NCBI GenBank assembly: GCA_947642555.1
Contig: CANRSX010000001.1
Span: forward strand, 62,001-126,000
Reading direction: 5' to 3'
Source of the DNA: an uncultured Roseburia sp.
GTDB lineage: Bacteria; Bacillota; Clostridia; Lachnospirales; Lachnospiraceae
DNA length: 64,000 nucleotides
Shown: piece by piece, positions 2,893 to 46,235 of the stretch
Layout of the letters: each line of letters begins with the position of its first letter
Position numbering within the stretch: position 1 is the first letter of the stretch
Program-made: the position numbers and the translations under genes
The notes under the pieces: generated by a model
What the model saw: only the letters and a program-made list of their open reading frames with translations
What the model was told of the DNA's origin: nothing
The model's database searches: none

Positions 2893-3221
2893 CCGCCCTC
2901 CCTGTCCGCTGCCTGTTCCTCCAGATAAGTACGGATCCCGAATGCCCCGGTATTCCGGTAAACCTCATCGACAATTGACGCTGCCACTTCCACCGCCTCC
3001 TCATAGCCCTTCGCCAGCCCGATGATCCGAAGCCCGCACTTCGGATATGCCTTCTGCAAAAGCTCCTGCGCCGGTATGATATCTAACAGATTATGATCAT
3101 TTGACGCAAGTGCAATCACATAGATATTCAGCTGGCCCGCATTATGGCGGATCTTCCATATAATCTTCTTTGTCTTATGTACGATACTGTCTCCTACGTA
3201 CAATTCGTCATACCAGGTCAT
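2880..3221 (-). CDS. Conserved small Clostridia protein (probably DUF6145)
   Basis: This 113-residue protein has no signal peptide or membrane helix and begins TWYDELYVGDSI. It has an alternating strand-helix pattern with the conserved-looking QLNIYVIALASNDHNLLDI and GLAKGYEEAVEVAASIVDEVY. It resembles the small Lachnospiraceae family DUF6145, which often lies beside NUDIX and DUF2953 genes; this assignment is from memory of the family. The ATG has a GGGAG ribosome-binding site 5 bp upstream. The gene lies 9 bp after the NUDIX gene and overlaps the DUF2953 gene by 13 bp, so the three are likely one transcript. Function unknown. Confidence 0.7.
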   Translation of the reverse strand: MTWYDELYVGDSIVHKTKKIIWKIRHNAGQLNIYVIALASNDHNLLDIIPAQELLQKAYPKCGLRIIGLAKGYEEAVEVAASIVDEVYRNTGAFGIRTYLEEQAADREGGWQS

Positions 3222-3230
3222 TGGGTCTCC

Positions 3231-3683
3231 CTAAAAGTATTTGTGATTTCCCCACAAATTACTCTTTTTTAACTCCAGATATTCATTGTAGGCGCGCTCT
3301 AAAATCTGCTTTTCATTCGGAAACTTCAGCAGATGGTACGCCTCGTGATATTTGTAATACCCGGAATCCACAAAATATTCTTCCCGCTGTGGTTTGCTGT
3401 AATAACTGTCCGCCATCATCAGATACCAGTGGACGTCCTTTTCCACGGTTCCCTCCGGAACGGTAAACGAATACCGGCTCTTCCCGACGTATTTGATAAT
3501 CCCGGCTTTCACGCCGGTCTCCTCAAGCACCTCCCTGGCGGCCGTCTGACTGTACTCCTCGCCCGCTTCTACCGTTCCCTTGGGCAAAACCCACCCCTCG
3601 TATCTGCTCTTATAATTCTTGTATAAAAGCAGGATCTTGCCCCGAAAAATCACCACACCACCACAGCTTGTTGCCTCAATCAT
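3231..3683 (-). CDS. NUDIX hydrolase
   Basis: This 150-residue protein carries a complete NUDIX box around residues 37-59 (GTVEAGEEYSQTAAREVLEE followed by TGV), including the REVLEE metal-binding residues. It is preceded by a strand with EGWVLPK, typical of MutT-like and Ap4A hydrolase-like members. The length suits a single-domain cytosolic hydrolase of nucleoside diphosphate derivatives; the substrate is not predictable. A strong AGGAGG site precedes the ATG, and a sigma-A type promoter (3719-3747) lies just upstream, so this is the first gene of a transcript that probably continues through the DUF6145-like gene, DUF2953 and gerW. Confidence 0.92.
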   Translation of the reverse strand: MIEATSCGGVVIFRGKILLLYKNYKSRYEGWVLPKGTVEAGEEYSQTAAREVLEETGVKAGIIKYVGKSRYSFTVPEGTVEKDVHWYLMMADSYYSKPQREEYFVDSGYYKYHEAYHLLKFPNEKQILERAYNEYLELKKSNLWGNHKYF

Positions 3684-3718
3684 TGCAATACCTCCTGATG
3701 TGGTCTGTACTCCCTTTT

Positions 3719-3747
3719 AGTATAATACTTTTTGCGCATCCACGCAA
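3719..3747 (-). promoter_or_regulatory. Sigma-A type promoter for the NUDIX-DUF2953-gerW transcript
   Basis: On the minus strand TTGCGT (3742-3747) and TATACT (3719-3724) are separated by 17 bp, about 35 bp upstream of the NUDIX start codon. The position fits a start of transcription after the upstream PBP gene ends at 3775. Confidence 0.6.
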
Positions 3748-3774
3748 CCGCCGGATCACGGAAAGTTGGAACTG

Positions 3775-5274
3775 TTACTCTATATAGTATGCATCAAAGA
3801 TCTCCTGTGCAATCGGCACCGCATATTCGCTGCCGACGCCGGAATCCTCCACGATCACCGTCACGACGATATCCGGCTTTCCGTCCTGATGCGCAAACCC
3901 GGTAAACCAGGAATGGCTGGCCTTTGAGCTCGTCGAAAACTCCGCGGAGCCGGTTTTCCCGTACACCTCGTAGCGGTCATTGGAAAGCTGCCGGCCGGTG
4001 CCCGCCTCGATCACGTATCCCATGTACTCTTTTAACACGGCTGCCTCCTCCGATGACATCAGCCTGCCGTACTCTTTTCCCGTATACTGCTCCACCAGCA
4101 CGCCGCGGTCGTCCGAGACGTGATCGATGACATACGGGGACATCAGGACGCCGTCGTTTGCGATGGCGCCTGTGATCAGCGCGACATGAAGCGGCGTCAC
4201 CAGCGTCTGTCCCTGCCCGATCGCGGTCTCCATCACGGCGGAGGTATCCGCGCCTTCCTCTAACACAAAGCTGCTTTTGGACGACTCGATGGCGACCGGC
4301 AGATCCGTGTCAAACAGCATGCTCTCACACATCGCGTGAAACTGCGCCAGATCCAGCTCCAGCCCGATGGACGAGTAGGCGGAATTGCAGGAATTGGCAA
4401 ACGCCTCCTTTAAATCCTCGCTGCCGTGTCTCGCGTTATTATAGCAGTGGATCGTCTTATGGCCTTCCGTGTATTCCCCGCTGCACGAAAACCGGTAATC
4501 CGTATAATCCTCCGGATGCTCCCGCAGGTATTCCAGCGTCGTAAAAATCTTAAACGTCGAACCCGGCGGATAGCGCCCCTGCGTCGCGCGGTTTAACAGC
4601 TCCGAGCGGTCGTTGTCCTCGTCGACAAGCTCCTCCCAGTCCTCCCCGATCGTATTCGGGTCAAAATCCGGCTTTGAGACCATCGCGAGCAGCCGCCCTG
4701 TCTGCGGCTCTAAGACGACCACCGCGCCGTCGTAGTGCCCGAGCGCATCAAACGCCTGCAGCTGCAGCTCATAATTTAACGTGGTGTACACGCTGTCCCC
4801 CGGGCTCTTCTCCCCCTGCAGGTCGCTGACCACCTTTTCCCCGTAAAAAATATTGGAGCGCAGCAGGGAAAAATTGGCCGTCGCCTCAAGTCCCGCCGTG
4901 CCGTGGCCGCTGTAACCCACGATATGGGAAAAAATGCGGGCGCACGGATAGCGCCGCACCTCGTTTTCCTCCGCGTCTACAATCGTCTCCGCCAGCGTCA
5001 CGCCGTCCGCGGAATAGATTTCCCCGCGGATCACCTTCTGGGTAAACAGCTCCTGACGCTTGTTATACGGGTTATTGATAAACTGCTCGCTCAGCGCGAA
5101 CTCAAAATACGTGACATATCCCATCAGGCACAAAAAGACCGCCAGAAACGTGTAGGTGACCACCGCAAACTCGCGGTTTGCACGGTTACGAGATTTTTTC
5201 GACCTGGCTGTCGAAGCCGGTTTTTCCGGACTTCCGTTTTTCTTTTGCACCTGTTTTTTTGTTTTTTGATCCAT
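3775..5274 (-). CDS. Class B penicillin-binding protein (peptidoglycan transpeptidase)
   Basis: This roughly 500-residue protein has a basic cytoplasmic tail, one membrane helix (FAVVTYTFLAVFLCLMGYV, about residues 41-60) and a linker. The transpeptidase domain has all three motifs: STFK (SxxK, around 245), SCNSA (SxN) and KTGSAE (KTG, near 450). It matches the PbpA/FtsI-like PBPs encoded next to FtsW/RodA genes in Clostridia, which cross-link nascent peptidoglycan outside the membrane. The ATG at 5274 has AAGGA seven bases upstream. An upstream ATG at 5289 is possible. Either way the 5' end overlaps the FtsW/RodA gene by about 90-104 bp in another frame. Elongation, division or sporulation cannot be separated from sequence alone. 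Confidence 0.93.
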   Translation of the reverse strand: MDQKTKKQVQKKNGSPEKPASTARSKKSRNRANREFAVVTYTFLAVFLCLMGYVTYFEFALSEQFINNPYNKRQELFTQKVIRGEIYSADGVTLAETIVDAEENEVRRYPCARIFSHIVGYSGHGTAGLEATANFSLLRSNIFYGEKVVSDLQGEKSPGDSVYTTLNYELQLQAFDALGHYDGAVVVLEPQTGRLLAMVSKPDFDPNTIGEDWEELVDEDNDRSELLNRATQGRYPPGSTFKIFTTLEYLREHPEDYTDYRFSCSGEYTEGHKTIHCYNNARHGSEDLKEAFANSCNSAYSSIGLELDLAQFHAMCESMLFDTDLPVAIESSKSSFVLEEGADTSAVMETAIGQGQTLVTPLHVALITGAIANDGVLMSPYVIDHVSDDRGVLVEQYTGKEYGRLMSSEEAAVLKEYMGYVIEAGTGRQLSNDRYEVYGKTGSAEFSTSSKASHSWFTGFAHQDGKPDIVVTVIVEDSGVGSEYAVPIAQEIFDAYYIE

Positions 5275-32932: not shown

Positions 32933-34132
32933 TTATCTGACTTTTCCTTCAATTTCAGAGAGCATGGCGTAAAGCAGTCCCCGGGTCGTATGCCAGTCCG
33001 GCTCGTTCCGGGAAAGCGCGCGTTTGAGGGCGTCCATCCTTTTAAAGTAAAAGGTACGGGCAAGCGTGGTGAGGATCCCGTACAGCCGCCGCTCCGGTTC
33101 GGTGAGTGGCCGGCGGGCGCAGTAGGCTTCGAGGATCTGCCCGGTCCGTTCTTTCCATGTCTGCCCAAAACCGCTGAGCGGCAGCATCCTTTCTTCCGCC
33201 CCCGCGCCGTCCGCCGTAAGAAGATCCGCCAGGTACACGCTCTGCAGCGCCAGATCACTCACAGGCACGCAGTCGCCGGCCTCATCGAAATCCAGCACTC
33301 CCAGCGCATCCTGTGTCCAGAACAGGTTTCCACACGTCAGATCCCCCTGCACCGCACAGGCCGGGAGCACGCGAAGAAGCACGTCCGCCTCTTCCATCAG
33401 CCTGCTTCCGCATCCGTACAGCTGTTCGTACAGCCGGATGCATTCTCCGGACACAGGATCCGCGCCCGCCTCTTTCTGTGCGCAGAGGTATGTCCTGCAT
33501 TGAGAAAAACGGTCAAATCGGATGATCTCGTTTTTCCGGGACGCATTATACCACCGGGAAGGCATTCCAATCCGTGCGCCTTCCCGCTCCGAAACCAGAT
33601 GCAGCTCCGCCATCAGCCGGCCCCAGGCACAGACCGAAGAGGACGTGAGGCGGATACCCGCGCCGGGAATAAATTCCTCCGCACAGACATGCCACTGTCC
33701 TCCGGTACCGTACAGCGGCAGCACGTACGCACCGGCGGCGCGCAGATGCGCCGGCGTCGGGATTTTATTTCGGGACAGGCATTCCGCAAAGGCACACTGC
33801 CGCTCCCGGATGATAAGCGCCTGCGTCCCGTCCGCCGGATAACATTTCAACACATACCGCGCCCCGTCCGCGCACCGCATCAACGCAACTACTTTTACAG
33901 TTGCTCCTGTGTCTGCCGATCCGGGCTGTCCTGGAGCGGGGATGCGAACCGGCTCTCCCGCTGGCCAGGAGTCGGAGCAGGCCAGCCCCGCATCCGCCAG
34001 GTTCAGGCCGAAGCCTGCCACGCCATCACCCGCCAGGTTCAGGCCGAAGCCTGCCACGCCATCACCCGCCAGGTTCAGGCCGAAGCCCGCTGCAGCATCC
34101 CCTGCCAGGCTGCGAAGCTCCTCCGGGCTCAT
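32933..34132 (-). CDS. APH/HSK-like phosphotransferase with tandem-repeat N-terminus
   Basis: This 399-residue protein has an aminoglycoside phosphotransferase/homoserine-kinase fold. VLKCYPADGTQALI supplies the ATP-binding Lys region, ACAVQGDLTCGNLFW the catalytic loop (QGDL..N) and GVLDFDEAGDC the metal-binding Asp. The fold is shared by kinases of antibiotics, choline, homoserine and lanthipeptide-like substrates, so the substrate is open. Residues about 8-47 contain three copies of a 12-residue unit with AGFGLNL, which seems to be an expansion of the normal N-terminus. It starts in the GNAT stop (ATGA overlap) and is the last gene of the peptide-modification operon. A substrate in that pathway is possible but unproven. 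Confidence 0.8.
   Translation of the reverse strand: MSPEELRSLAGDAAAGFGLNLAGDGVAGFGLNLAGDGVAGFGLNLADAGLACSDSWPAGEPVRIPAPGQPGSADTGATVKVVALMRCADGARYVLKCYPADGTQALIIRERQCAFAECLSRNKIPTPAHLRAAGAYVLPLYGTGGQWHVCAEEFIPGAGIRLTSSSVCAWGRLMAELHLVSEREGARIGMPSRWYNASRKNEIIRFDRFSQCRTYLCAQKEAGADPVSGECIRLYEQLYGCGSRLMEEADVLLRVLPACAVQGDLTCGNLFWTQDALGVLDFDEAGDCVPVSDLALQSVYLADLLTADGAGAEERMLPLSGFGQTWKERTGQILEAYCARRPLTEPERRLYGILTTLARTFYFKRMDALKRALSRNEPDWHTTRGLLYAMLSEIEGKVR
33995..34102. repeat. 36-bp tandem repeat, three copies, inside the phosphotransferase gene
   Basis: Units at 33995-34030, 34031-34066 and 34067-34102 each begin CGCCAGGTTCAGGCCGAAGC. The first two are identical and the third diverges at its end. 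Each encodes 12 in-frame residues, so copy-number change would alter the N-terminus without a frameshift. Confidence 0.9.
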
Positions 34133-34692
34133 CTGTCCGGGCAGGCTCTCGCCAAAGCCTCTCCCTGCCGGTGCTCCCCGATGATTTTTTCCATCCAGAT
34201 CATGTGATACCAGCGGCCGAATTTGTACCCGCAGTTGTGAAAGACGCCGACCGTCTCAAATCCCAGATGCGCGTGAAACTCTGCGCTGTTGCTGTTCAGA
34301 TACGCGTCCTCAGTCTCCGGGTATCCGATGCAGGCATACAGGTTCAGGATCCCCAGCTTCCGCAGCCTCTCCTCCAGCGCCTCGTAGAGCATCCGCCCCA
34401 GGCCGGATTTTACCGCCCCATGGTCGAGATAGATCGTCAGCTCGCACGACCAGTCATAGGCGGCCCGGCCGATAAAAGGGCCGGCATATGCGTAACCCAG
34501 CACACGCCCGTCCCGCTCACAGACCAGCCACGGATAGCGCCGCGTCTTATCCCGGATCCGCTCCTTAAATTCCGCCAGTGTGGGCACCTCATATTCGAAA
34601 GAGATCGCTGTCTCCTCCACATAATAGGCATAGATTTCCAGCATACGCTCTGCATCCCGCTCTGATGCATCCCTGATCGTCACGCTGCACAT
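34129..34692 (-). CDS. GNAT family N-acetyltransferase (phosphinothricin-acetyltransferase-like)
   Basis: This 187-residue protein has the phosphinothricin/methionine-sulfoximine acetyltransferase pattern. IRDASERDAERMLEIYAYY begins it, then SFEYEVPTLAEFKERI, GYAYAGPFIGRAAYDWSCEL, a CoA-binding segment KSGLGRMLYEALEERL and HAHLGFETVGVFHNCGYKFG. Such enzymes acetylate small amines; related GNATs modify peptide N-termini. GAGGAGG lies eight bases before the ATG. It follows the Cys-rich peptide gene by about 70 bp with a hairpin in between, and overlaps the APH-like gene by 4 bp. The substrate is unknown. Confidence 0.9.
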   Translation of the reverse strand: MCSVTIRDASERDAERMLEIYAYYVEETAISFEYEVPTLAEFKERIRDKTRRYPWLVCERDGRVLGYAYAGPFIGRAAYDWSCELTIYLDHGAVKSGLGRMLYEALEERLRKLGILNLYACIGYPETEDAYLNSNSAEFHAHLGFETVGVFHNCGYKFGRWYHMIWMEKIIGEHRQGEALARACPDR

Positions 34693-34722
34693 ACGTCATT
34701 CCTCCTCTCCGGACACAGGAAA

Positions 34723-34742
34723 GCAGCCGGACTCCCGGCTGC
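34723..34742 (-). terminator. Stem-loop between the peptide gene and the GNAT gene
   Basis: On the minus strand GCAGCCGG and CCGGCTGC form an eight-base-pair stem with loop GAGT, followed by TTTCCTG. The weak T-run suggests partial termination, which would give more peptide mRNA than downstream enzyme mRNA. Confidence 0.55.
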
Positions 34743-34764
34743 CTTCTGCGTGCATGTCCATACA

Positions 34765-34851
34765 CTAATCGATGTTGCTCGGGCAGGAGCCGGCGGTGCA
34801 GCAGCCGGTCACGTTGCACTCCTCATCTCTTCTCTCGACAAGAATACTCAT
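34765..34851 (-). CDS. Short cysteine-rich peptide, candidate RiPP precursor
   Basis: A 28-codon frame (ATG 34851, TAG 34765) has an excellent AGGAGG ribosome-binding site eight to ten bases upstream. The first ten residues are charged, with two Arg and three Glu/Asp, like a mini-leader. The remainder is ECNVTGCCTAGSCPSNID. Cysteines at 12, 17, 18 and 23 give a symmetrical C-x4-CC-x4-C pattern with small residues (Gly, Ala, Ser, Thr) between them. It sits between three radical SAM genes upstream and a GNAT and kinase gene downstream, the usual place for a precursor of a ribosomally made, modified peptide. No Gly-Gly cleavage site and no similarity to a family I know are visible. Function is inferred from size, start site and context. 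Confidence 0.72.
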   Translation of the reverse strand: MSILVERRDEECNVTGCCTAGSCPSNID

Positions 34852-34882
34852 ATGGGTTCTCCTCCTTTCCCTGTCATGATAC

Positions 34883-34905: not shown

Positions 34906-34939
34906 ATGCTGTATCTGTATTAAAAACGCTTTCACGTCC

Positions 34940-36205
34940 TTAACCGTTCCTTAACGCCTCCACCCAGGCCACAAGATCCTTCTCGATCTGTTCACGCTTT
35001 AACGCGCAGTACCGCAGCGGTTTTTCCTTCCGCCGCTCATTCGGGCAGCCGCCAAAGCACACCGGAAGCAGGCTGCAGTCCGCAAGGCACCGCTCCTCAA
35101 GCGGACGGAAATATGCCAGCTCCTCATCCCGGTAAAAGCTTCCCGCATAGATATCCCCCGCCGCGTTCGCCGGATCCCCCATGGTCCGCTGGCAGCGGTA
35201 AAGCTCGCCCTCCGGCCCGATCATGATCTGGGAAATCTTTTCATAGCCGCAGTAATTGCGCCGGATGTCAGGCAGCAGGTCCGCGGCGGTAAAGCTTTGA
35301 TAACGCTTCATGGCGTCCCGGACAAAACGGTTTCTGAATTCTACAAAAGAGATTTGATCCACACAGTCATCCTCCGGGATCCCGCAGCTGTCCAGATCAT
35401 CCACACGGGCTAAGTATACGCGGACCGCCCCGTCCAGCCCCTGGTCCCGGAGAAGCCAGTCCACAAGGGGCCCGATCTCCTCCCGGTTTCGGGCGGAGAC
35501 ATTGACGCGCACCGAGATCCGCGTCTTTCTGGCATTCGCCCGAATATTTTCCACAACCCGGTCAAAGCATGGGATCCCCTTCGCCGCGTCGTGCGTTTCC
35601 CGCATGCCGTCCAGGGTGATCTGAACCTTCGTCAGATTCATGGCGGGAATCAGCGCGTCGGCAAGCTCCGGCGTAAACGCGATGCCGTTCGTGATGACCT
35701 CCGAGTGAAAACGGATCCCCCGCTCCTCACAGAATGCCCGGGTCTCAACGGCAATCCGCTTTATCTGCTCCGCCGAAAGAAGCGGCTCCCCGCCAAAAAA
35801 CAACAGACACAGCTCCTCGCAGGCCGCAAGCTTTACTCTTTTCTGAATAAACGAGACCGTATCCCGACAGATCTGCTCTGTCATCGTCTTTTTCTCCGCG
35901 CACCCGTTTTCAAAACAGTACCAGCACTTCGCCTGGCACTGCATGGTGGGCGCGATCTCGATGTGCAGATACCGGATCCGCGTGGAATAAAGCTCCCGGT
36001 TCCGCTCCATGATCAGGCGGTTTACCTCATGAATCCGTTCATCCACGAGAAACCCCTGTTCGATCATCAAAGCGCGCTCCGGCCCCTGCGCCGCTTCATG
36101 CACCGGGCGGTCGAACAGCGCCAGCGCCCCGGTACAGGTATTGTACAAAAGATACCCCTGCCCAAGCGGGATCTCAAGGTTAAATACAGACTCTTTATAC
36201 CCCAT
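34940..36205 (-). CDS. Radical SAM/SPASM peptide maturase
   Basis: This 421-residue protein starts MGYKESVFNLEIPLGQGYLL with YNTCTGALALFD, an N-terminal segment typical of SPASM peptide maturases, where it acts as a peptide-recognition-like region. The radical SAM motif is CQAKCWYC (CX3CX2C) near residue 108, followed by LLFFGGEPLLS and QITLDGMRETHD. C-terminal SPASM cysteines include YCGYEK, LYRCQRTMG, CLADCSLLPVCFGGCPNE and RYCALK, enough for auxiliary 4Fe-4S clusters. ATG 36205 follows GAGGTG; the upstream extension overlaps the preceding gene. It is the gene immediately upstream of the Cys-rich peptide, so it is the best candidate to install cross-links in it. Confidence 0.88.
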   Translation of the reverse strand: MGYKESVFNLEIPLGQGYLLYNTCTGALALFDRPVHEAAQGPERALMIEQGFLVDERIHEVNRLIMERNRELYSTRIRYLHIEIAPTMQCQAKCWYCFENGCAEKKTMTEQICRDTVSFIQKRVKLAACEELCLLFFGGEPLLSAEQIKRIAVETRAFCEERGIRFHSEVITNGIAFTPELADALIPAMNLTKVQITLDGMRETHDAAKGIPCFDRVVENIRANARKTRISVRVNVSARNREEIGPLVDWLLRDQGLDGAVRVYLARVDDLDSCGIPEDDCVDQISFVEFRNRFVRDAMKRYQSFTAADLLPDIRRNYCGYEKISQIMIGPEGELYRCQRTMGDPANAAGDIYAGSFYRDEELAYFRPLEERCLADCSLLPVCFGGCPNERRKEKPLRYCALKREQIEKDLVAWVEALRNG

Positions 36206-36213
36206 CGCACACC

Positions 36214-36990
36214 TCACAGCATGATTACCTTTGAAAACTGCTCCACCGCCTGCGGGCCGGGAACCAGCGTCACCCTTCCCTTCCACTGCGGATTTTTATC
36301 GACAAATGACGTCAATATTTTCACCAGCTCCGCCGGATCCTTTGGGGAAAGCCCGGGCGTCGGGTGTTCTCTGTTCGGCTGGTAATTGTTGATTTTTAAA
36401 TAAACCTTTGGGTAGCGGGATAAAATCTCCCCGAAGGCTTCCAGCGTCTCTGCCCGAAACGCATCATAACAGACATAGGTGACAATGACGTCGCAGGAGG
36501 GATGCGCCGCGATCTGTCCGATACTGAAAAGCACATTGTCCCAGCAGATTGTTTCGGGCCGTCCCCCGGATCTTCTGACCGCTTCCTCCGCGGAGAGACC
36601 CTTCAGCGAAATGCCGAACAGATCCACCAGCCCCTCCTCCATCAGCGGCAGAATGCGCTCCGGCATCGAGCCGTTCGTATCCAGAAAGGTGATCCCGCCC
36701 AGGCGCTTTACAATCCCAAGATCACGTCTTAAATCCGGGTTTAACGCGGGCTCCCCTCCCGTAAATTTAAACACCTGCCCCTCAGGCAGAAGCCGCCTCA
36801 CCAGCGCCTCAAACGTCTCCGCCGTAAATTCCTCATAGCGGTTGGTGGGCTGATAATATTTGAAAAAACAGAATTCGCAGTCAAAATTACACCTGCAGTA
36901 TGAGATGGAATGCGCATTCTGCGGTTCCTCCCCCGTGACAAAACGGGAGCATTTCATCGCAAAGGAACCGGGTACCACCAGATAGGACAT
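36214..36990 (-). CDS. Radical SAM protein without SPASM domain
   Basis: This 258-residue protein has a CNFDCEFC (CX3CX2C) motif near residue 34 preceded by HSISYCR, then VFKFTGGEPALNPDLRRDLG and ITFLDTNGSMPERI. The layout resembles pyruvate-formate-lyase-activating enzyme-like radical SAM proteins, with a truncated C-terminus lacking SPASM or twitch cysteines. It probably binds a single 4Fe-4S cluster. AAGGAG precedes the ATG. It lies 18 bp after one SPASM gene and 8 bp before the next, so all three are cotranscribed. The substrate, peptide or protein glycyl radical, is not defined. Confidence 0.85.
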   Translation of the reverse strand: MSYLVVPGSFAMKCSRFVTGEEPQNAHSISYCRCNFDCEFCFFKYYQPTNRYEEFTAETFEALVRRLLPEGQVFKFTGGEPALNPDLRRDLGIVKRLGGITFLDTNGSMPERILPLMEEGLVDLFGISLKGLSAEEAVRRSGGRPETICWDNVLFSIGQIAAHPSCDVIVTYVCYDAFRAETLEAFGEILSRYPKVYLKINNYQPNREHPTPGLSPKDPAELVKILTSFVDKNPQWKGRVTLVPGPQAVEQFSKVIML

Positions 36991-37008: not shown

Positions 37009-38421
37009 CTACGGTCTGCCCGCCGTGCCATACGTCTTTAAAATCCGCTCCGCCAGCAGCTCCACGTAAAATTTTTTCCGGAAGCACGGCGTCGTGTCAA
37101 AGGTCGGCGACAGCCGGTAATGCTTACAGCCGCCCTGGCAGCAGGGCAGGTAAATACAGGTCTCACAGGTTTCTCCCAGATCATCCATCTCCCGATACCA
37201 TTTCGTATAGTTGTAGTTACTTCGCGCCCCGTCGCGGCAGTCCCCGACGGAATTGTCGTCCGCGAGGGAATCCTGCACACACTCAAACAGCTTTCCGTTG
37301 GCGTTGATCACGATCTTGTTCGGCGCGCAGGCGATGCAGTTCGAGCTGTCCCGCACCGGCAGCTGCGCAAGGGGATCCGCGATCAGCCCGTGTGAAAACA
37401 GCTTCGGGATCACGGTCTGATAAAACGCAGGGTACTCCTCCGCCGCGAAATATTTCTCCCTGCTGCCCGGCCGGCTCGTCTTGTTGCGCAGCGTCGTCAC
37501 CTGCACGCCAAACTGCGGATGCCCGGCGAACCGTTCCAGATCCCCCAGAATGTCGTCCAGCTGCGCGAAATTATCCTTATCCAGGTTCACCCGGCAGGTG
37601 GTGTGAATCCCCGCATCCAAAAGCCGTGAGAGGTTCTGAAGCGTCCGCCCATAGGCGTCGGCAGTGCTGTCTACATATGCCTTTCTCCGGTCGTGCTCCT
37701 CCCGGTACCCGTCAATCGTCGTCATCACGTCATTGACACGCCACAGTCCGAGAAACCGTTCCAGGATCTCATCTGTGAGCAGGCTGTTATTTGTCGTGAC
37801 GGAGGATGTATAGGGAAGCTCCCCGTGGAAGCGGTCATTTACCCCGGTCAGGATCCGGTCGATGATCCCGGCTGCCGCGAGGGGTTCCCCGCCAAACCAG
37901 ATAAACCCCACATTCTGCCACGGCTGAATCCGCGTGCCGAGATACCGGATGACCTCCTCTGTCACCGCGTCGTCCATCGTCAGAGTCGCGAACTCCTGTT
38001 CAAAGCAGTAAAAACAGCGGGCGTTGCAGGTCTGCGTGGGAAGGATCTCGACGTCAATATGGCCGTTCTCCGGGTAGGCGTAGGCGTGCCGTTTCCGAAG
38101 GAAATCAATGCGGAACACCTCGTCCAGATCCGCGTCGACATAAAAGCCAAGGTCATACAGCAGCGCGTCAAAATCCGTCTCCGCCAGAAACTCTTTTTTC
38201 TGCTGATAACGCCGAAGCTCCTCCCCGTTTATAATTGCGCAGGCATCCGAGGCCGTGTTCCAGAGCAGGGCTTCCTCCCCGTTCTGATACAGATAATTAT
38301 AATGCGACCGCTTTAACGCGCGACCGCGATGCCGCCCGCTGGGCATCTCGTCCACATTCGTCTGGAACTTCTGTTTTGATATGTCAAAGACCGAAATCGT
38401 CTGATTTCTCAGTATCCGCAT
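37009..38421 (-). CDS. Radical SAM/SPASM peptide maturase (second)
   Basis: This 470-residue protein has an N-terminal region with SHYNYLYQNGEEALLWNTAS, resembling peptide-maturase N-domains. The radical SAM motif CNARCFYCFEQEF (about residue 132), GFIWFGGEPLAAAGIID and TTIDGYREEHDRRK follow. SPASM cysteines include SNCIACAPNKIVINANGKLF with ECVQDS, GETCETCIYLPCCQGGCKHY and TTPCFRKKF. The set suggests auxiliary clusters as in sactipeptide or ranthipeptide synthases. GAGGAGAGG precedes the ATG, inside the 3' end of the upstream GNAT gene (38-bp overlap). The presence of two different SPASM enzymes implies two different modifications or two substrates. Confidence 0.88.
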   Translation of the reverse strand: MRILRNQTISVFDISKQKFQTNVDEMPSGRHRGRALKRSHYNYLYQNGEEALLWNTASDACAIINGEELRRYQQKKEFLAETDFDALLYDLGFYVDADLDEVFRIDFLRKRHAYAYPENGHIDVEILPTQTCNARCFYCFEQEFATLTMDDAVTEEVIRYLGTRIQPWQNVGFIWFGGEPLAAAGIIDRILTGVNDRFHGELPYTSSVTTNNSLLTDEILERFLGLWRVNDVMTTIDGYREEHDRRKAYVDSTADAYGRTLQNLSRLLDAGIHTTCRVNLDKDNFAQLDDILGDLERFAGHPQFGVQVTTLRNKTSRPGSREKYFAAEEYPAFYQTVIPKLFSHGLIADPLAQLPVRDSSNCIACAPNKIVINANGKLFECVQDSLADDNSVGDCRDGARSNYNYTKWYREMDDLGETCETCIYLPCCQGGCKHYRLSPTFDTTPCFRKKFYVELLAERILKTYGTAGRP

Positions 38422-39004
38422 AACCCTCTCCTCTTCTGTGCAGAATCACACGCTCTGACGCCCTGCTGTCAGCATATCCGCCTCCGCCCGGTGCAGCGGC
38501 GCCGTCATGCCGCCCGGCGTACTCCCGCATTATGAAAAACCCTGCTGCCACGCCCGCCATGATCATCGCCCGGTTGGCGGCATACGTCAGCAGGTACAGC
38601 TCCCGCACCCCGCAGCCTGACAGATACTCCGCGTACAGCCGCAGCGCCTCCCTCCCGAAGCCGCTCCCGCGGTATTTCTCTTCCGGGATCACGATCCCCA
38701 CCGCCGCCGAATCGCGCACGTCACTGCCCGCCGGATATGCGTAACAGTTGATAAAACCGATATGTCCTCCCGCCCTGGTATAAATCTCGAGCGCGGTGTG
38801 AATCCCGTGGCGAAACCGCCCGTTTTCCCGGATCTCTTTAATTTTTTTCTCCCGGTAGAGCTCCGGGTCAGATTCCACGGGCACATAATCCGGGTCGTCC
38901 AGCCGCTTCCACTCCGTGCACCCGGTGTTCCACCAGATGCGCTCCGCAATCCCCGCGGCGGAAAGCGGCGACAGCTCCACACGGTCTCCTCTCAGGCAGA
39001 ACAT
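38384..39004 (-). CDS. GNAT family N-acetyltransferase (RimJ/RimL-like)
   Basis: This 206-residue protein from ATG 39004 (GAGAGGAT upstream) has the RimJ/RimL/Ard-type pattern. It has WNTGCTEWKRLDDPDYVP near the N-terminus, IGFINCYAYPAGSDVRDSAA, VGIVIPEEKYRGSGFGREAL (CoA-binding R-x-x-G-x-G/A) and YLLTYAANRAMIMAGVAAGF. The last 45 residues form a poorly conserved Gly/Arg tail overlapping the next gene. It is the first gene after the promoter at 39090 and so may lead the operon of radical SAM genes. The acceptor is unknown. Confidence 0.83.
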   Translation of the reverse strand: MFCLRGDRVELSPLSAAGIAERIWWNTGCTEWKRLDDPDYVPVESDPELYREKKIKEIRENGRFRHGIHTALEIYTRAGGHIGFINCYAYPAGSDVRDSAAVGIVIPEEKYRGSGFGREALRLYAEYLSGCGVRELYLLTYAANRAMIMAGVAAGFFIMREYAGRHDGAAAPGGGGYADSRASERVILHRRGEGYADTEKSDDFGL

Positions 39005-39089
39005 GAATTCACATCCTCTCCGGCTGCCGGCTTTGCAACGGCCATTCCGACGATCCTGCGGCAGGCCGGGCGCGCTCCTTTTGCACTCT

Positions 39090-39118
39090 ATTATACGCGT
39101 ATCCCGGGCGTCGCACAA
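39090..39118 (-). promoter_or_regulatory. Promoter of the GNAT-radical SAM-peptide operon
   Basis: On the minus strand TTGTGC (39113-39118) and a perfect TATAAT (39090-39095) are 17 bp apart, about 85 bp upstream of the GNAT start. The downstream genes are tightly spaced, so this is the likely promoter for 39004 down to the APH-like gene. Confidence 0.6.
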
Positions 39119-39175
39119 GAAAAATCGCAGTCGGCCTCGCAGCAATCCGGCTCACAGCCGGCCAGCAGTACCGCC

Positions 39176-40429
39176 TCACAGCGTCAGCCGTTTCGGGAAC
39201 GCCTCGTTTCGCAGGACGCCCCACATTTTGTCGATGTAGGAGAGCGTGTAAAAGTTTTCATAATAATGGTAGTAATACGCCCCCTTTGGCGTCATGATAT
39301 AACTATCTTTGTCTTTTCTGATAAAACCAAGCCATTCCGCGAGCTTTAACTCCATCCCGTACATTTTTTTCAGCGGAATCCCGAAAAACCGCTCAAACTC
39401 CCCGGCGTCGACCCGCGTGCTGTAGGCCGCCCAGAAGAGATAATACACCATCCGCTGCCGCCGCGAAAACCGGCAGGTCAGCGCAGTGGCGGACTCCCCC
39501 CGCTCCATCCGGCGGCAGTATTCCTCCACGGAAAAGGTGTTGATCTTAAACTGACCGCGAAGCAGCGTGGCCGCAGAACAGCCGAACCCGAGGTATGTCT
39601 CCCTGGTCATGGAGGAATATCCCGCCCCCTTTTCCCGGGCGAATGTCCAGACGGAGGTGCGGATACAGCCCCGTTTCAGGCAGTAAGCGGTGATCCCGTC
39701 TAACAGCCGGCGCTTTTCCCGTTCCGGCATCCGGCGGATCTTCCCGGGCGTAAAGGTAAAATCGATAAAGGGATAAATCGCGATGTGGTTTGCCCCGTGG
39801 GTGAAGGCGGCATCGACGTCCGCCGCGAGGTCCCGGAGGGTCTGTCCCGGCAGGGCAAAAATAAAATCCATGGAAACCGTCTCAAAGGGAACCGCGGCGA
39901 GGGCTTCGGACATGGCGGCAGCGTCCACTGTTTTCCGCCCCAGGACGGTCTGATATTTTTTCTGAAACGACTGGATCCCGATGCTCAGCTTCGTCACGCC
40001 GGCCTCCTTTAACGTCCGAAGCACCGGAACCGTCACATTGTCCGGGTGCAGCTCCACGCCGACGCCCTCCGTGATGATAAAATGCTGCCGGACCGCGTCG
40101 AGGATATCCTTCATGCGGTCCGCTGCCAGCGCCGGGGTTCCGCCGCCGATGTAGAGGCTGGTGACGGTTTTCTTTTTCCCGAGAGAATTTCCCGTCCTGT
40201 GGATCTCCCGGATCAGGGCGTCGATGTAGCGGCTGCACAGCTCCTCCTGGTACAGAACCTTGCAGTACGGGCAGAACCCGCAGATGCTGCTGCAGAAGGG
40301 GATGTGCAGATACAGCCCCAGATTCCGGCAGCCTTTGAAAGAGGTCTGCGGCGCAGGCTCGTCTGTGAACAGAAACGGTTTTACGGAACGGGTCAGCCAC
40401 ATTCTTGTCAGGTTTGTAATTACTCCCAT
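39176..40429 (-). CDS. HemN-like radical SAM protein (coproporphyrinogen III oxidase family)
   Basis: This 417-residue protein has a HemN/HemW-type core. It has LGLYLHIPFCSSICGFCPYC with the CX3CX2C motif plus one cysteine, TSLYIGGGTPALAADRM, VELHPDNVTVPVL, KLSIGIQSFQKKYQTVLGRK and VSMDFIFALPGQTLRDL. A HemN-C-type winged domain (FKINTFSVEEYCRRMERGE onward) ends it. HemN-like proteins include coproporphyrinogen oxidase, HemW and the class C methyltransferases of thiopeptide pathways, so the reaction is open. ATG 40429 has AGGAGG-rich upstream sequence. It pairs with the radical SAM gene at 40483 in a separate operon. Confidence 0.85.
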   Translation of the reverse strand: MGVITNLTRMWLTRSVKPFLFTDEPAPQTSFKGCRNLGLYLHIPFCSSICGFCPYCKVLYQEELCSRYIDALIREIHRTGNSLGKKKTVTSLYIGGGTPALAADRMKDILDAVRQHFIITEGVGVELHPDNVTVPVLRTLKEAGVTKLSIGIQSFQKKYQTVLGRKTVDAAAMSEALAAVPFETVSMDFIFALPGQTLRDLAADVDAAFTHGANHIAIYPFIDFTFTPGKIRRMPEREKRRLLDGITAYCLKRGCIRTSVWTFAREKGAGYSSMTRETYLGFGCSAATLLRGQFKINTFSVEEYCRRMERGESATALTCRFSRRQRMVYYLFWAAYSTRVDAGEFERFFGIPLKKMYGMELKLAEWLGFIRKDKDSYIMTPKGAYYYHYYENFYTLSYIDKMWGVLRNEAFPKRLTL

Positions 40430-40482
40430 GGCTCCTCCTCCTTTTTCGCCGGGTAAATCGGATGCCGGAGCTAAAAGCGGCA

Positions 40483-41385
40483 TCAGATGTATTTCAGATA
40501 GGTGCGCAGCATTTCGAAGATGATTTTCACATTTCCGCGGAATAAAAGCGTGTACTCCGCCACGAAAAAATAGCCGCACTGGTCGCACAGCCCCGGCACG
40601 TCGATGCAGCGGCCGCAGATGCTTAGGTTTCCGTTTTCCATCACCACACACTGCTCACAGGGCGTGGGAAAGGTGCCCCGGATCAGGTACGGGAAGGCGC
40701 TTTTGAGATTAAACACCGGCGCGCCCTCCCGCATCTGCTCTTCGATCACCCCGCAGCACTCCGCCTTCTCCGCAGGGCTTAGCGCAAGCTCCGCCGTGTC
40801 CGGGTAGGGCGTGTGAAAATTAAAGGAGACGGCCCGGACATTTGGCAGCTGCTTTGCCGCGCGACAGACGTCGCGTATCGCATGGCGGTTGATCTGATTG
40901 ATCGCCATATAAAAACAGATGTTGTCCGCCGACGCGTTCTGAATGTTTTCCATGATCGCGTCGTAGGTATCGCCCCGGATCCGGTTGTGCGCCTCCCTGT
41001 CCCCGTCGAGGCTTAACAGGATCAGATCCGCCTCCGGCAAGTCGATGGGAAAGGTGCCGTTCGTCACCACGTTTACGATGAGAAAGCCCATTTCCTTTGC
41101 CTCCACCACCAGGTCGCGCAGGCATTTCCCCGCATCCTCCCACAGAAACGTCTCGCCGCCGCAGAAAAACAGGATGCGAATGCCCATCCCGTAAAGCTGC
41201 CGCATTTCCTCCCGAATCTGCGCATACGGGTAGATGACCGCTGTAATGTTGTTCACCGAACAGTGCCTGCATTTTAAATTGCATTTGTCGGTGAGTATGA
41301 TCGTGCCCAGGATCGGATCCTTTTTGCGGAACAGGATCGTGCGGATGCCGAAGCGGGCGAGGGAAAAGAAGGAAGATGGGGTCAT
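40483..41385 (-). CDS. Radical SAM protein (CNLKCRHC type)
   Basis: This 300-residue protein has ILTDKCNLKCRHCSVNNIT (CX3CX2C) near residue 30, ILFFCGGETFLWEDAGKC, NVVTNGTFPIDLPEADLI and LLSLDGDREAHNRI. The C-terminal cysteine group is TPCEQCVVMENGNLSICGRC with LCDQCGYF, a twitch/SPASM-like auxiliary cluster site. The C-terminal 30 residues are hydrophobic and could contact the membrane. GGAGG precedes the ATG. Proteins of this type often accompany a HemN-like gene in Clostridia, as here (54 bp apart). The substrate is unknown; it may or may not act on the downstream Cys-rich peptide. Confidence 0.83.
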   Translation of the reverse strand: MTPSSFFSLARFGIRTILFRKKDPILGTIILTDKCNLKCRHCSVNNITAVIYPYAQIREEMRQLYGMGIRILFFCGGETFLWEDAGKCLRDLVVEAKEMGFLIVNVVTNGTFPIDLPEADLILLSLDGDREAHNRIRGDTYDAIMENIQNASADNICFYMAINQINRHAIRDVCRAAKQLPNVRAVSFNFHTPYPDTAELALSPAEKAECCGVIEEQMREGAPVFNLKSAFPYLIRGTFPTPCEQCVVMENGNLSICGRCIDVPGLCDQCGYFFVAEYTLLFRGNVKIIFEMLRTYLKYI

Positions 41386-42370: not shown

Positions 42371-43807
42371 TCAGTTCGCCACTACTGTAAGCGGAATTCT
42401 TACACTTCGTCCCTGATAAAACGCAACAATATAGGTGCTTCCTTCTTTTACCGCACGATATTCTGTACCACTTACATATTCCATACAGGAATCCGAATAC
42501 AGATCAGCAATATAAATATACAGCAACGGCTGTTGAGAAATATCTTCCTCTATACCGCCCGTATCCTCATAGAGAACGGTGAGGGTACTCAGATCAACAA
42601 TATCGCCTGTTTTTATTGTATATCCTGACGGCTGGATCTTAAGCCTCCCATCTGTTGCCGGACACGTCACCAAAATTTCATCCTCATACTGACTGTGATT
42701 ATCCTGCCAGCTATTCCCGTCTCCATAATCCTCATAAAGACATTTCACAATCATTCCCGAATACATGTCCATACTCTCGTCATACTTATAAAGTGTCACT
42801 GTTTCAGTGGAATCATATGCATTTACAAAATAATTCCCATCCGGCAATTCGTATGTGATTCTGATATACTGATAATCCGAATCACCGTTGGAAGCAAAAT
42901 TCAGCTTCTCACCATTTGTACTTCCAAGCAGAACCGGTTCGGCTGATTCATCATTTTTCTCACACAATTCCGCCTTTATCACAGCTCCCGGGATTGTACA
43001 TTCTCCATAAGTACTCATACTATGAATATCACTGCCGTATGACACAAGATAGAAATTCATTTCAATTGGTCTTATATTCGTCCCCCGCGGTGGCAGTCCC
43101 GGCACTTCCGGCTCAGGTGTCGGTTCGGGCTTAGGTGTCGGTATCGGCTGCGGCTCCGGCTGCGGAATATATGGCTGTGGCTGCGGGATATACGGTGCAG
43201 GCTCTACAACCGTCTGGGAAGGTTCCAGCTCCGGCTCAGGCTCAGGTTCCGGCTGTGGTTCCGGTTTCTTCACCGGCTTTACCGCTGCCACTTCCTCTTC
43301 CGGCGCTTCGCTCTCTTCCTCTGTCTCTGTCACTTCCGACTCCGGCGTTTCTTCTTCCTGCCCCTCACTGTCTTCCTCTCCTTCGGTCTCTTCCTCCTGC
43401 TCTGCCAGCTCCAGCTGTTCCTTTATAGCCCGGACTTCTCCCAGCCTGATTCCCAGTTCCTCCGAGCCGGTCCGTTCCATTCCAAGCTCTAAGTATTCGA
43501 TGGCCATATCCAGATCGCCCAGCTGTATGTACGCCTCCGCAATGCCGGTATATGCCTCGACACATTTATCATCCAGCCGCAGTGCTTCCTCGTAGGCGGC
43601 AATCGCACGCTCATAATCCATATCCGCCAGATACTGATCGCCGAGTGCCAGCTGACGCTCCAGCCTGTTATTTTTATTGTGATACACGCAGATCCCGATG
43701 ATGCCTGTCACGATAAACAATAGTATCAGAAAAACAAAAATCATTTTGGGCAGCTTCTTTTCTTTCTGCCATTGTTTCATCCTGTTTTTTATTTCTTCCA
43801 TATCCAT
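42371..43807 (-). CDS. TPR membrane protein with Pro/Glu stalk (paralogue 1)
   Basis: This 478-residue protein has a basic N-terminus and one membrane helix (MIFVFLILLFIVTGIIGICV, about 22-42). Two to three TPR-like repeats (DQYLADMDYERAIAAYEEAL and YTGIAEAYIQLGDLDMAIEY) follow, then an acidic stretch and a Pro/Glu/Gln-rich stalk with PYIPQPQP repeats. The C-terminal 230 residues are beta-rich, including CTIPGAVIKAEL and PLLYIYIADLYS. The topology suggests an inside N-terminus with TPRs and stalk outside. The start may be 43807 or the ATG at 43801. The TPR part is almost identical to paralogue 3. Function unknown; perhaps envelope assembly linked to the kinase. Confidence 0.75.
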   Translation of the reverse strand: MDMEEIKNRMKQWQKEKKLPKMIFVFLILLFIVTGIIGICVYHNKNNRLERQLALGDQYLADMDYERAIAAYEEALRLDDKCVEAYTGIAEAYIQLGDLDMAIEYLELGMERTGSEELGIRLGEVRAIKEQLELAEQEEETEGEEDSEGQEEETPESEVTETEEESEAPEEEVAAVKPVKKPEPQPEPEPEPELEPSQTVVEPAPYIPQPQPYIPQPEPQPIPTPKPEPTPEPEVPGLPPRGTNIRPIEMNFYLVSYGSDIHSMSTYGECTIPGAVIKAELCEKNDESAEPVLLGSTNGEKLNFASNGDSDYQYIRITYELPDGNYFVNAYDSTETVTLYKYDESMDMYSGMIVKCLYEDYGDGNSWQDNHSQYEDEILVTCPATDGRLKIQPSGYTIKTGDIVDLSTLTVLYEDTGGIEEDISQQPLLYIYIADLYSDSCMEYVSGTEYRAVKEGSTYIVAFYQGRSVRIPLTVVAN

Positions 43808-43825
43808 CCTCTTTTTTACACTTCA

Positions 43826-44806
43826 TCAGGTGTGCCAGATGCTGCAGACGTCGCCCTCCGGGATCTCATTTTCTGCCCCGTCTGAATCGTGAAATGTACT
43901 GCCGTCAAACCACCAGTAGTATCCGTCCATTCTGCCTCCCACCTCATGGTCTCCTCCTGTCGTACATTCAAATCCGCTGTCATCTGCCGGGTGTTCACAG
44001 TAAAATACCGCTGTCAGGCTGTTATGGTATACACCTACGGTCTTCCCGTCGCTTGTGATCAGACGGTATCCGGTTTCACCGTTAGTTCCTCCCCATCCTT
44101 CATATCGGTATGGCTCACATTTGGTGAGAAAATCAGGAGCATTGATAATAGAAAGCACCGCCTGATAATCATTACTGATCAGTTTCGAATATAGTTCATC
44201 TATCCATGGCAGCTCCTGACTGACAGGCGGCTGCGGCTGCGGAATATACGGAATCGGTTCCTCAGCCTCTTCTGTGACCTCTTCCGTTTCTTCTTCCGGT
44301 TCTTTTTTCACCGGTTTCTTTTTGGGCGGCTCCTCTTCCTCCGTTTCTTCTTCCGGTTCCTCCTCTTCGGTTTCCTCGATCATCTCTGTTACCTGTGTCT
44401 CTTCCTCCAGCTCTTCTTCCGGTTCTTCCTGTGGCGCATTCATCAGACGAAGAACTGCCAGGTTTGCAATCAGTACTGGCGACTCTGTTTTTTCAACTCC
44501 GATCTCCAGATATTGGATCGCCATATCCAGATCACCCATGCACACATATGCTTTCGCAATACCGACATATGCTTCGACACACTTATCATCGATCCGCAAT
44601 GCTTCCTCATAGGCCGCAATCGCCTGCTCATAATCCAGATCTTCCAGATACCGGTCTCCGAGTTCCAGCTGGCGCTCTAATCTGCTGGTCTCATTATTAT
44701 TCGCATACACCACTCCGATTCCGGTCATCCCTGCTAATAGCAAAAGCAGAATCATCATCAGTTTTGGTAATTTCCATTTTTGTAATTTTGACTTTATTGA
44801 TGTCAT
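43826..44806 (-). CDS. TPR membrane protein with acidic linker (paralogue 2)
   Basis: This 326-residue protein shares the N-terminal plan of its neighbours: a membrane helix (LMMILLLLLAGMTGIGVVYA) and TPR-like repeats (DRYLEDLDYEQAIAAYEEAL, YVGIAKAYVCMGDLDMAIQY). A very acidic linker (EEPEEELEEETQ and similar) and a short PYIPQPQP stalk follow. The C-terminal 150 residues differ from the paralogues and contain SIINAPDFLTKCEPYRYEGW and a cluster of aromatic residues (GYYWWFDGS). No known family is recognised for that domain. It lies 49 bp after paralogue 3 in the same direction. Confidence 0.72.
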   Translation of the reverse strand: MTSIKSKLQKWKLPKLMMILLLLLAGMTGIGVVYANNNETSRLERQLELGDRYLEDLDYEQAIAAYEEALRIDDKCVEAYVGIAKAYVCMGDLDMAIQYLEIGVEKTESPVLIANLAVLRLMNAPQEEPEEELEEETQVTEMIEETEEEEPEEETEEEEPPKKKPVKKEPEEETEEVTEEAEEPIPYIPQPQPPVSQELPWIDELYSKLISNDYQAVLSIINAPDFLTKCEPYRYEGWGGTNGETGYRLITSDGKTVGVYHNSLTAVFYCEHPADDSGFECTTGGDHEVGGRMDGYYWWFDGSTFHDSDGAENEIPEGDVCSIWHT

Positions 44807-44855
44807 TTATTTTCCTCTGTCCTTTCCCACCGGATACATGCATTTTTATCAGTAC

Positions 44856-46235
44856 CTAATTTTCCTCTATCGTGACAGGAATTTTCACCCAGCACTTCTG
44901 TGCTGCAATTGCAAGATAGGAATCGCCGGCTTGTACTACCTGTAGTTTTAATCCATTTCCTGTAGTTACAAAATAACCTGAGCCATATGTATGTCCCTCG
45001 ATCAAAACCTCTTCTGTACTTCCGTCAGGCTTCGTGTGTGTCAGTATAATCGTCTCCAAATCTATAATATCCCCGGTCTTTACCGTGAAAGAGGCTGGCT
45101 GCGCCGTCAGTATCCCGTCCAGCGAAGGATTGATCACCATTGGCGCAGCCGGATAATCATTTTCCCATCGTGAAAACGGAATTTCCCCTTCTATATACTC
45201 ATACGATTCCAAAAATGAGCAGCCGTAAAACATCCCCGCAACCTCATTATATTCCCACTCATTCGTATCCGCCGGCTCTTCTGTCAGAAAAAAATAATAA
45301 CCTTCTGGAAGTATTGTTTTAATCCTCACCGCCTGGTAATCCGAGTCCCCTGTTGCGGAAAGATCAAGTGTCCCGTCATTCGTGCTTCCGAGAAGAACCG
45401 GCGTGGCAGAGGGATTGTACAGATCAACCAGCTCTGCCTGTATCACTGCCCCCGGAATTCCCACCAGCGCATTGCCATACTGAATCCGTATTTTCCTCTC
45501 GATCGGCTTCATATTCGTCCCACGCGGCGGCAGTCCCGGCACTTCCGGCTCCGGTTCTGGTTCCGGCTCTGGTGTCGGTTCCGGCTCTGGCGTCGGTTCC
45601 GGCTGCGGGATGTATGGCTGTGGCTGCGGGATATACGGCGCAGGCTCTACAACCGTCTCCACAGGTTCTGGTTCGGGCTCAGGTTCCGGCTGTGGTTCCG
45701 GTTTCTTCACCGGCTTTACCGCTGCCACCTGCTCCTCCGGCTCTTCGCTCTCTTCCTCTGTTTCTGTCACCTCCGGCTCCGGTTCTTCTTCCGGCTCCTC
45801 ACTGTCTTCCTCTTCTTCGGTCTCTTTCTCCTGCTCTGCCAGCTCCAGCTGTTCCTTTATGGCCCGGACTTCCCCCAGCCTGGTTCCCAGCTCCTCCGAG
45901 CCGGTCCGTTCCATTCCGAGCTCTAAGTATTCGATCGCCATATCCAGATCGCCCAGCTGTACATATGCCTCCGCAATACCGGTATACGCCTCGACACATT
46001 TGTCATCCAGCCGCAGTGCTTCCTCATAGGCGGCAATGGCGCGCTCATAATCCATATCCGACAGATACTGATCGCCGAGTGCCAGCTGACGCTCCAGCCT
46101 GCTGTCTGTATTGTTATATGCACAGACGATGCCGATCCCGGTCACGCCCACAAGAAGCAGCAGTATGATGAGCAGCAGTATGGGCAGTTTCTTTTCTTCA
46201 CGCCACTTATTCCATTTATTTTTTAATGTTTCCAT
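44856..46235 (-). CDS. TPR membrane protein with Pro/Glu stalk (paralogue 3)
   Basis: This 459-residue protein has the same architecture as paralogue 1: a membrane helix (LPILLLIILLLLVGVTGIGI), TPR-like repeats (DQYLSDMDYERAIAAYEEAL, YTGIAEAYVQLGDLDMAIEY), an acidic region, and a PEPEPEPEP and PYIPQPQP stalk. The beta-rich C-terminal domain contains IPGAVIQAELVDLYNP and SFTVKTGDIIDLETIILT. The N-terminal halves of 1 and 3 are nearly identical while the C-terminal domains have diverged. The gene follows a 45-residue membrane protein by 12 bp. Whether the C-terminal domain is extracellular rests on the single membrane helix and basic N-terminus. Confidence 0.75.
   Translation of the reverse strand: METLKNKWNKWREEKKLPILLLIILLLLVGVTGIGIVCAYNNTDSRLERQLALGDQYLSDMDYERAIAAYEEALRLDDKCVEAYTGIAEAYVQLGDLDMAIEYLELGMERTGSEELGTRLGEVRAIKEQLELAEQEKETEEEEDSEEPEEEPEPEVTETEEESEEPEEQVAAVKPVKKPEPQPEPEPEPEPVETVVEPAPYIPQPQPYIPQPEPTPEPEPTPEPEPEPEPEVPGLPPRGTNMKPIERKIRIQYGNALVGIPGAVIQAELVDLYNPSATPVLLGSTNDGTLDLSATGDSDYQAVRIKTILPEGYYFFLTEEPADTNEWEYNEVAGMFYGCSFLESYEYIEGEIPFSRWENDYPAAPMVINPSLDGILTAQPASFTVKTGDIIDLETIILTHTKPDGSTEEVLIEGHTYGSGYFVTTGNGLKLQVVQAGDSYLAIAAQKCWVKIPVTIEEN

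Follow-up and report, generated by a model that had tools for sequence, protein, structure and literature searches.

The window, by which we mean the whole stretch of 64,000 nucleotides that was analyzed, carries on its minus strand a run of genes in the order rSAM5, HemN-like, GNAT, SPASM2, rSAM2, SPASM1, peptide, hairpin, GNAT and APH-type kinase (Table 1). The conserved block consists of SPASM2, rSAM2, SPASM1 and, last, a 28-codon peptide gene, which is separated from the end of SPASM1 by 88 nt. The block has a GC content of 0.56, little different from the 0.54 of the window, and no protease or transporter was recognized within the block. An earlier note, made from the letters alone, had proposed an unlisted 28-codon gene at 34765..34851 with a textbook AGGAGG site. 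The position was correct, but it is the minus strand that codes for the peptide; the reading of the plus strand is unrelated. The ribosome binding site is indeed perfect. The neighbors named in that note are there as well, with a radical SAM/SPASM gene upstream and, downstream, first a GNAT acetyltransferase and next an APH-type kinase.

Table 1. Features of the window and of the related locus L057.
Locus	Feature	Coordinates	Strand	Remarks
Window	APH-type kinase, downstream	32933..34132	(-)	not in L057
Window	GNAT acetyltransferase, beyond hairpin	34129..34692	(-)	not in L057
Window	Strong hairpin 3' of peptide gene	34715..34749	(-)	z -3.6; terminator-like, poor U tract (UUUCC)
Window	Precursor peptide gene (probable), 28 aa	34765..34851	(-)	ATG at 34851, TAG ends at 34765; product MSILVERRDEECNVTGCCTAGSCPSNID
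Window	Ribosome binding site AGGAGG	34861..34866	(-)	perfect; ATG 9 nt further on
Window	Hairpin with U-rich arm	34919..34944	(-)	from SPASM1 end into 88-nt gap
Window	SPASM1, radical SAM/SPASM maturase, 421 aa	34940..36205	(-)	CxxxCxxC and all seven SPASM cysteines
Window	rSAM2, radical SAM protein, 258 aa	36214..36990	(-)	pyruvate formate-lyase activating enzyme fold
Window	SPASM2, radical SAM/SPASM maturase, 470 aa	37009..38421	(-)	all seven SPASM cysteines
Window	GNAT acetyltransferase	38384..39145	(-)	longest ORF, start provisional; overlaps SPASM2
Window	HemN-like radical SAM protein	39176..40429	(-)	start set by its GGAGGAGG site
Window	rSAM5, fifth radical SAM protein, 300 aa	40483..41385	(-)	first gene of the run
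L057	SPASM2	1345-2805
L057	rSAM2	2806-3582
L057	SPASM1	3573-4856
L057	Peptide gene, 28 codons	4907-4993		product MSVLVERRDVDCETSGCCSNDGCPSNID

The longest open reading frame of SPASM1, starting at 36286 and overlapping rSAM2, begins too early, since a Met at 36205 is common to 26 of 26 aligned SPASM1 sequences. Behind the peptide gene stands a strong hairpin, which was not among the calls of a terminator scan (34749-34715); the peptide gene of L057 also has a hairpin behind it, with a z score of -4.9. A second hairpin, at the end of SPASM1, and a weak promoter-like match at 34904-34876, in the gap 5' of the peptide gene, possibly provide separate control of peptide dosage.

Membership in the cassette is doubtful for rSAM5, for the HemN-like gene and for the GNAT gene at 38384..39145. 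The last was not found in L057; the genes for the HemN-like and the 300-aa radical SAM proteins were not found there either, on a contig that reaches 1.3 kb upstream of the cassette. No cut-off was reached by rSAM5 among 25 listed NCBIfam models. The locus had been described as a radical SAM island with acetyltransferase and kinase genes; three of its radical SAM enzymes are common to L057, whereas the acetyltransferase and kinase lie outside the shared block. Five radical SAM genes fall within 6.4 kb, the HemN-like gene and that for the 300-aa protein (39176-41385) leading the run together with a GNAT gene. In its N-terminal part, the ORF for the APH-type kinase holds a perfect 36-nt tandem repeat (2.6 copies, 33994-34087) with repeated GFGLNLAGDGVA segments, and at 42371-46235 there are three similar consecutive ORFs, tetratricopeptide-like by eye, with long Pro/Glu linkers and differing C-terminal parts.

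A second copy of the cassette and its distribution

We searched genomes with a profile built from 26 SPASM1 sequences. The closest SPASM1 locus among the best 80 of 117 relatives was L057 (JAILMJ010000105.1, a Clostridia MAG, genome G836), where SPASM1 is 57% identical to that of the window; at the remaining 79 loci the identity was 33% or less, and more close loci may exist beyond these 80. The gene order of L057 is that of the window, SPASM2, rSAM2, SPASM1, peptide and hairpin. Between the two peptides 18 of 28 residues are identical, with all four Cys in register, and the codons divide into 10 synonymous changes, 10 non-synonymous changes and 8 unchanged. With the stop codon left out, the genes differ at 31 nucleotides, 17 of them at third positions. 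When 31 substitutions were placed randomly in 20,000 trials, a mean of 9.8 residues was kept, 18 or more were kept in none, and all four Cys were kept in 0.39%. The earlier note had made its proposal depend on the frame and its cysteines persisting beside the same radical SAM genes, and in L057, one relative, the frame and the four Cys are kept. Conservation of a precursor beside its modifying enzymes, as expected of a RiPP, is likewise seen in this one relative, in the gene order and the 18/28-identical 28-mer.

The window contains 22 sites of the form AGGAGG-N4..10-ATG. Two of them open an ORF of 15-60 aa, the peptide gene with 4 Cys and another with 0 Cys. Over all six frames the pattern C-x4-CC-x4-C is found a single time. 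Sixty random windows drawn from an order-2 model contained on average 0.017 AGGAGG-led ORFs of 20-40 aa with at least 4 Cys and 0.083 occurrences of C-x4-CC-x4-C. What places the gene beyond chance decisively is the 18/28-identical 28-mer in the same place in L057, behind the same enzymes; the unlisted 28-codon gene is a real gene. Gene callers such as Prodigal have a minimum near 30 codons. Peptides this small tend to escape them, and their enzymes remain unnamed in databases. The 28-mer matched no model in NCBIfam, Pfam, PHROGs or PADLOC, in agreement with the earlier remark that no family with this pattern was known.

The distribution of the cassette is rare and patchy. The genome sets behind the following counts overlap, and all are samples. 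Within its own genus, SPASM1 had a match at 1e-10 in 19 of 62 genomes, the best after its own having an E value of 6e-33 and 29% identity. The SPASM1 profile passed 1e-40 in 17 of 397 genomes of the family, with 331 bits for the best locus other than its own (644 bits), and that locus has a different Cys peptide. Neither the 62 genus genomes nor the 397 family genomes held a close SPASM1 orthologue besides its own. At 1e-25 the rSAM2 profile found one of 391 genomes of the class and one of 329 relatives, each time the window's own genome. At 1e-10 it matched 2 genomes in a chosen set of 8 and 4 in a chosen set of 9, strongly in G836 only (1e-118; next 3e-17). Around G836, the rSAM2 profile matched 2 of 349 family genomes (1e-20) and 3 of 45 genus genomes (1e-15), the best outside G836 being 3e-21.

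We also compared contig sizes among the listed homologues, comprising the best 120 of 610 for SPASM1, the best 120 of 174 for SPASM2 and 63 of 63 for rSAM2. Among the matches listed, seven sizes occurred in all three lists (12216, 24924, 11035, 24667, 13440, 19144 and 5348 bases), six with SPASM2 and rSAM2 only (13386, 18773, 27716, 6093, 5032 and 6456), two with SPASM1 and rSAM2 only (7390 and 5568) and two with SPASM1 and SPASM2 only (2704 and 2627). Equal size is indirect evidence of linkage and may be coincidence; the size 11035 is that of L057, where linkage was seen directly. P0302 from the rSAM2 list and L073 share a size of 9340 bases, yet neither L073 nor the genome it comes from showed an rSAM2.

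A direct search with the 28-mer matched 71 of 397 family genomes at E <= 1. The window's own gene had an E value of 2e-15. All others stood at 0.0022 or higher, which we judged to be noise for so short a query. When 156 loci were scanned with a strict DNA pattern for the core, only the window's own locus (in three overlapping copies) and L057 matched, and viral contigs gave 0 matches. In viral contigs the SPASM1 profile found 1 remote relative and the rSAM2 profile 2; remote rSAM2 matches included 3 plasmid and 2 phage records.

The peptide and other Cys peptides beside SPASM1 relatives

Conservation between the two peptides is concentrated at the ends, with MSxLVERRD at the N-terminus (8 of 9 residues) and CPSNID at the C-terminus (6 of 6). 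Gly16-Cys17-Cys18 is kept, positions 15 and 19 carry a hydroxyl residue (Thr or Ser) in both, and position 11 is acidic in both; otherwise the middle residues vary. The Gly, Ala, Ser and Thr residues between the cysteines had been put forward as acceptors of cross-links. Of the residues so proposed, the hydroxyl residues at 15 and 19, Ser25 and Gly16 are kept, and Ala20, Gly21 and Ser22 are changed in L057.

To place the peptide among its relatives we surveyed the neighborhoods of 111 loci with SPASM1 relatives of at least 70 bits, leaving out four own loci and L057. Small ORFs were collected if they had a ribosome site, an ATG and at least 3 Cys and lay on the strand of the enzyme within 700 nt. 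Out of the 50 such ORFs, among them MEIIIETANVEVGDFELCSYDGCGCDSNCYDCYDRHNCDDCWSD (L058) and MIVLVEADNLYEGASCQCGCYDHCSCDTESCMCDGQCHEG (L138), 22 begin M-x-[IVLM][IVLM], compared with 10 of 131 Cys-containing ORFs taken as controls from other parts of the loci and, among nearby ORFs poorer in Cys, 7 of 68. The p value of 8e-8 for this start is overstated, as the motif was picked after the data had been viewed and the loci are mutually related. Some of the 50 are surely chance ORFs, and several resemble SCIFF peptides. Because the start of the window peptide, MSILVERRD, resembles the starts of these peptides, we propose that residues 1-11 form a recognition leader of about 11 residues and residues 12-28 the C-x4-CC-x4-C core. 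A precursor with such a short leader would help to set the lower limit of what an RRE-type enzyme needs.

Where SPASM1-like proteins occur without the trio (L138, L139, L141 and others), the Cys peptides are different ones, and we did not include such proteins among the orthologues. Beside the SPASM1 relatives of L058, L059, L061, L062, L064, L070, L083, L138 and L141 there are small Cys-rich ORFs, unclassified and often more than one to a locus; one ORF each from L058, L059, L061, L064, L070, L138 and L141 had no match in NCBIfam.

The three radical SAM enzymes and known systems

SPASM1 and SPASM2 are full-length paralogues. Radical SAM enzymes with a SPASM domain are marked by CxxxCxxC and seven SPASM cysteines, all of which are invariant in 26 of 26 SPASM1 and 33 of 33 SPASM2 rows. 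Over almost its full length, the structure model of SPASM1 matches CteB, a peptide maturase that forms thioethers. In whole-model comparison the N-terminal part of SPASM1 aligns with those of CteB and TigE, and the N-terminal domain of the predicted model is placed like the RRE of CteB. The best families for both paralogues are maturases of Cys-rich peptides, all scoring well below their cut-offs. SPASM1 scored 164.6, 162.1 and 128.2 bits and SPASM2 146.9, 129.6 and 125 bits against TIGR04463 (cut-off 525), CefB (NF038107, 600) and Clo7bot (TIGR04334, 600), and SPASM1 163.3 bits against the geopeptide model (400). Scores were also below the cut-offs for the SCIFF maturase TIGR03974 (SPASM1 61.1 and SPASM2 43.3 bits, 425) and PapB (NF047865; 103.9 and 97.1 bits, 340), and the RumMC model gave 32.5 bits for SPASM2 (720) and was absent from the best 25 families of SPASM1. 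PADLOC reported 'viperin' matches for SPASM1, SPASM2, rSAM2 and rSAM5 alike; we rejected these as reflecting the shared radical SAM core.

The model of rSAM2 folds like pyruvate formate-lyase activating enzyme. In the ten closest rows, its own included, Cys149 and Cys174 are both retained. EpeE carries a second cluster, according to passages of PMC8326336, whereas the only invariant Cys of rSAM2 are those of the CxxxCxxC triad. Against the YydG epimerase family TIGR04078 it scored 18.2 bits, with a cut-off of 300. An epimerase is one option among others for rSAM2.

In the SCIFF system a small Cys-rich peptide adjoins a single RRE + radical SAM + SPASM enzyme, as passages of PMC8326336 describe it. 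The SCIFF ranthipeptides (CteA/CteB, thermocellin) are alike in joining a small Cys-rich peptide to a SPASM enzyme, and the SPASM1 model resembles CteB. However, the window peptide has four Cys in 28 residues, where SCIFF peptides carry six in about 45, and the window cassette differs further in its Cys-Cys pair and its three radical SAM enzymes. Maturases of the TIGR04463, CefB, Clo7bot and geopeptide types were among the best families, with the scores given above. For freyrasin (PapA/PapB), passages of PMC9413430 describe a SPASM-type enzyme that makes Cys-to-Asp/Glu thioethers on a peptide with a Cys-x3-Asp/Glu motif. The window peptide has no such motif and the L057 peptide has one (Cys17-Asp21), which is thus not shared. 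The sactipeptides ruminococcin C and thuricin CD have Cys-bearing peptides and two radical SAM maturases, according to PMC8188230 and PMC12093266. Two such maturases for a Cys peptide are also what the window cassette offers. The RumC precursor differs from the window peptide in size and Cys spacing, and we know of no third, PFL-AE-like enzyme for ruminococcin C or thuricin CD. The mode of working appears to resemble that of ranthipeptides and sactipeptides, but the family models tested stayed below their cut-offs. Ranthipeptides have thioethers from Cys to a non-alpha carbon and sactipeptides from Cys to the alpha carbon, a distinction that sequence does not reveal. Among the matches listed from open-access literature, we found no report of the peptide or of the three-enzyme cassette. 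The sole match to the core string, the Cys motif or the L057 accession was a spider-venom paper in which CX4CCX4C is written once (PMC7471975).

Interpretation of the peptide gene

The peptide probably serves as precursor to a radical-SAM RiPP rich in Cys. That it is a substrate of the radical SAM enzymes, as the earlier note had supposed, is most likely, as the conserved small gene travels with them. For thioether cross-links in the core we consider the chances even or slightly better. In the mechanism that we propose, the leader start MSxLVER would, as the fold suggests, form a strand that binds the N-terminal, RRE-like domain of SPASM1 and possibly also that of SPASM2. SPASM1 and SPASM2 would then link the cysteines of C-x4-CC-x4-C to acceptors through thioether bridges, each bridge removing 2 Da; Cys12/Cys17 may be the task of one enzyme and Cys18/Cys23 that of the other. 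Acceptors could be, for example, the conserved hydroxyl residues 15, 19 or 25 or the conserved Asn26 or Asp28. Because rSAM2 is built like an enzyme that takes hydrogen from a peptide glycine, it might make a further backbone or side-chain change, such as epimerization, around the conserved Gly16-Cys-Cys. As no gene for leader removal or export was recognized in the cassette, the product may do its work within the cell, or an exporter encoded elsewhere may carry it out.

The earlier suggestion of a new RiPP class fared less well, since radical SAM/SPASM maturases that act on Cys-rich peptides form a broad set already known (TIGR04463, geopeptide, CefB, Clo7bot and SCIFF types), to which the nearest enzymes belong. 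It seems to us rather unlikely that the locus represents a new class in which three radical SAM enzymes make a compact symmetrical double-ring peptide, each SPASM paralogue being responsible for one half and rSAM2 modifying the Gly-Cys-Cys hinge of a 28-residue precursor with an 11-residue leader. The four-gene cassette is small enough for whole synthesis and could be used to test the division of labor between two SPASM enzymes and a PFL-AE-like enzyme on one peptide.

PqqA and the mycofactocin peptide are consumed to make small redox cofactors. The window peptide might similarly be consumed into a small redox cofactor or metallophore and not become a cyclic peptide natural product, as the very short precursor, the several radical SAM enzymes, the conserved C-terminal CPSNID and the lack of a recognized exporter in the cassette would allow. 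We consider this improbable, because PQQ and mycofactocin maturases are absent from the best 25 of 62 families for SPASM1 and of 54 for SPASM2, both enzymes match maturases of Cys-rich peptides best, and a rare, patchy spread fits a secondary metabolite better.

The four Cys codons lie just 5' of a strong hairpin that is followed by the GNAT and kinase genes, an arrangement that would suit a regulatory leader peptide, in which ribosomes stalling at Cys codons would control the hairpin and, through it, the acetyltransferase and kinase genes further on. Such cysteine attenuation is very unlikely, because L057 keeps the peptide and hairpin without the downstream acetyltransferase and kinase; in addition, the non-Cys ends MSxLVERRD and CPSNID are kept, which attenuation does not need, and the hairpin has no good U tract. 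Slightly less probable still is an independent small protein, metal-binding or toxin-like, that stands behind the radical SAM genes by accident. Four Cys could bind metal and no direct evidence links the peptide to the enzymes, but two distant genomes (SPASM1 57% identical) have it in the same place after the same three enzymes, and this, like the Cys-rich peptides beside many other SPASM1 relatives, argues against accident. A chance ORF, which a length of only 28 codons might suggest, is practically negligible given the conserved L057 copy, the random-substitution trials and the random-window counts.
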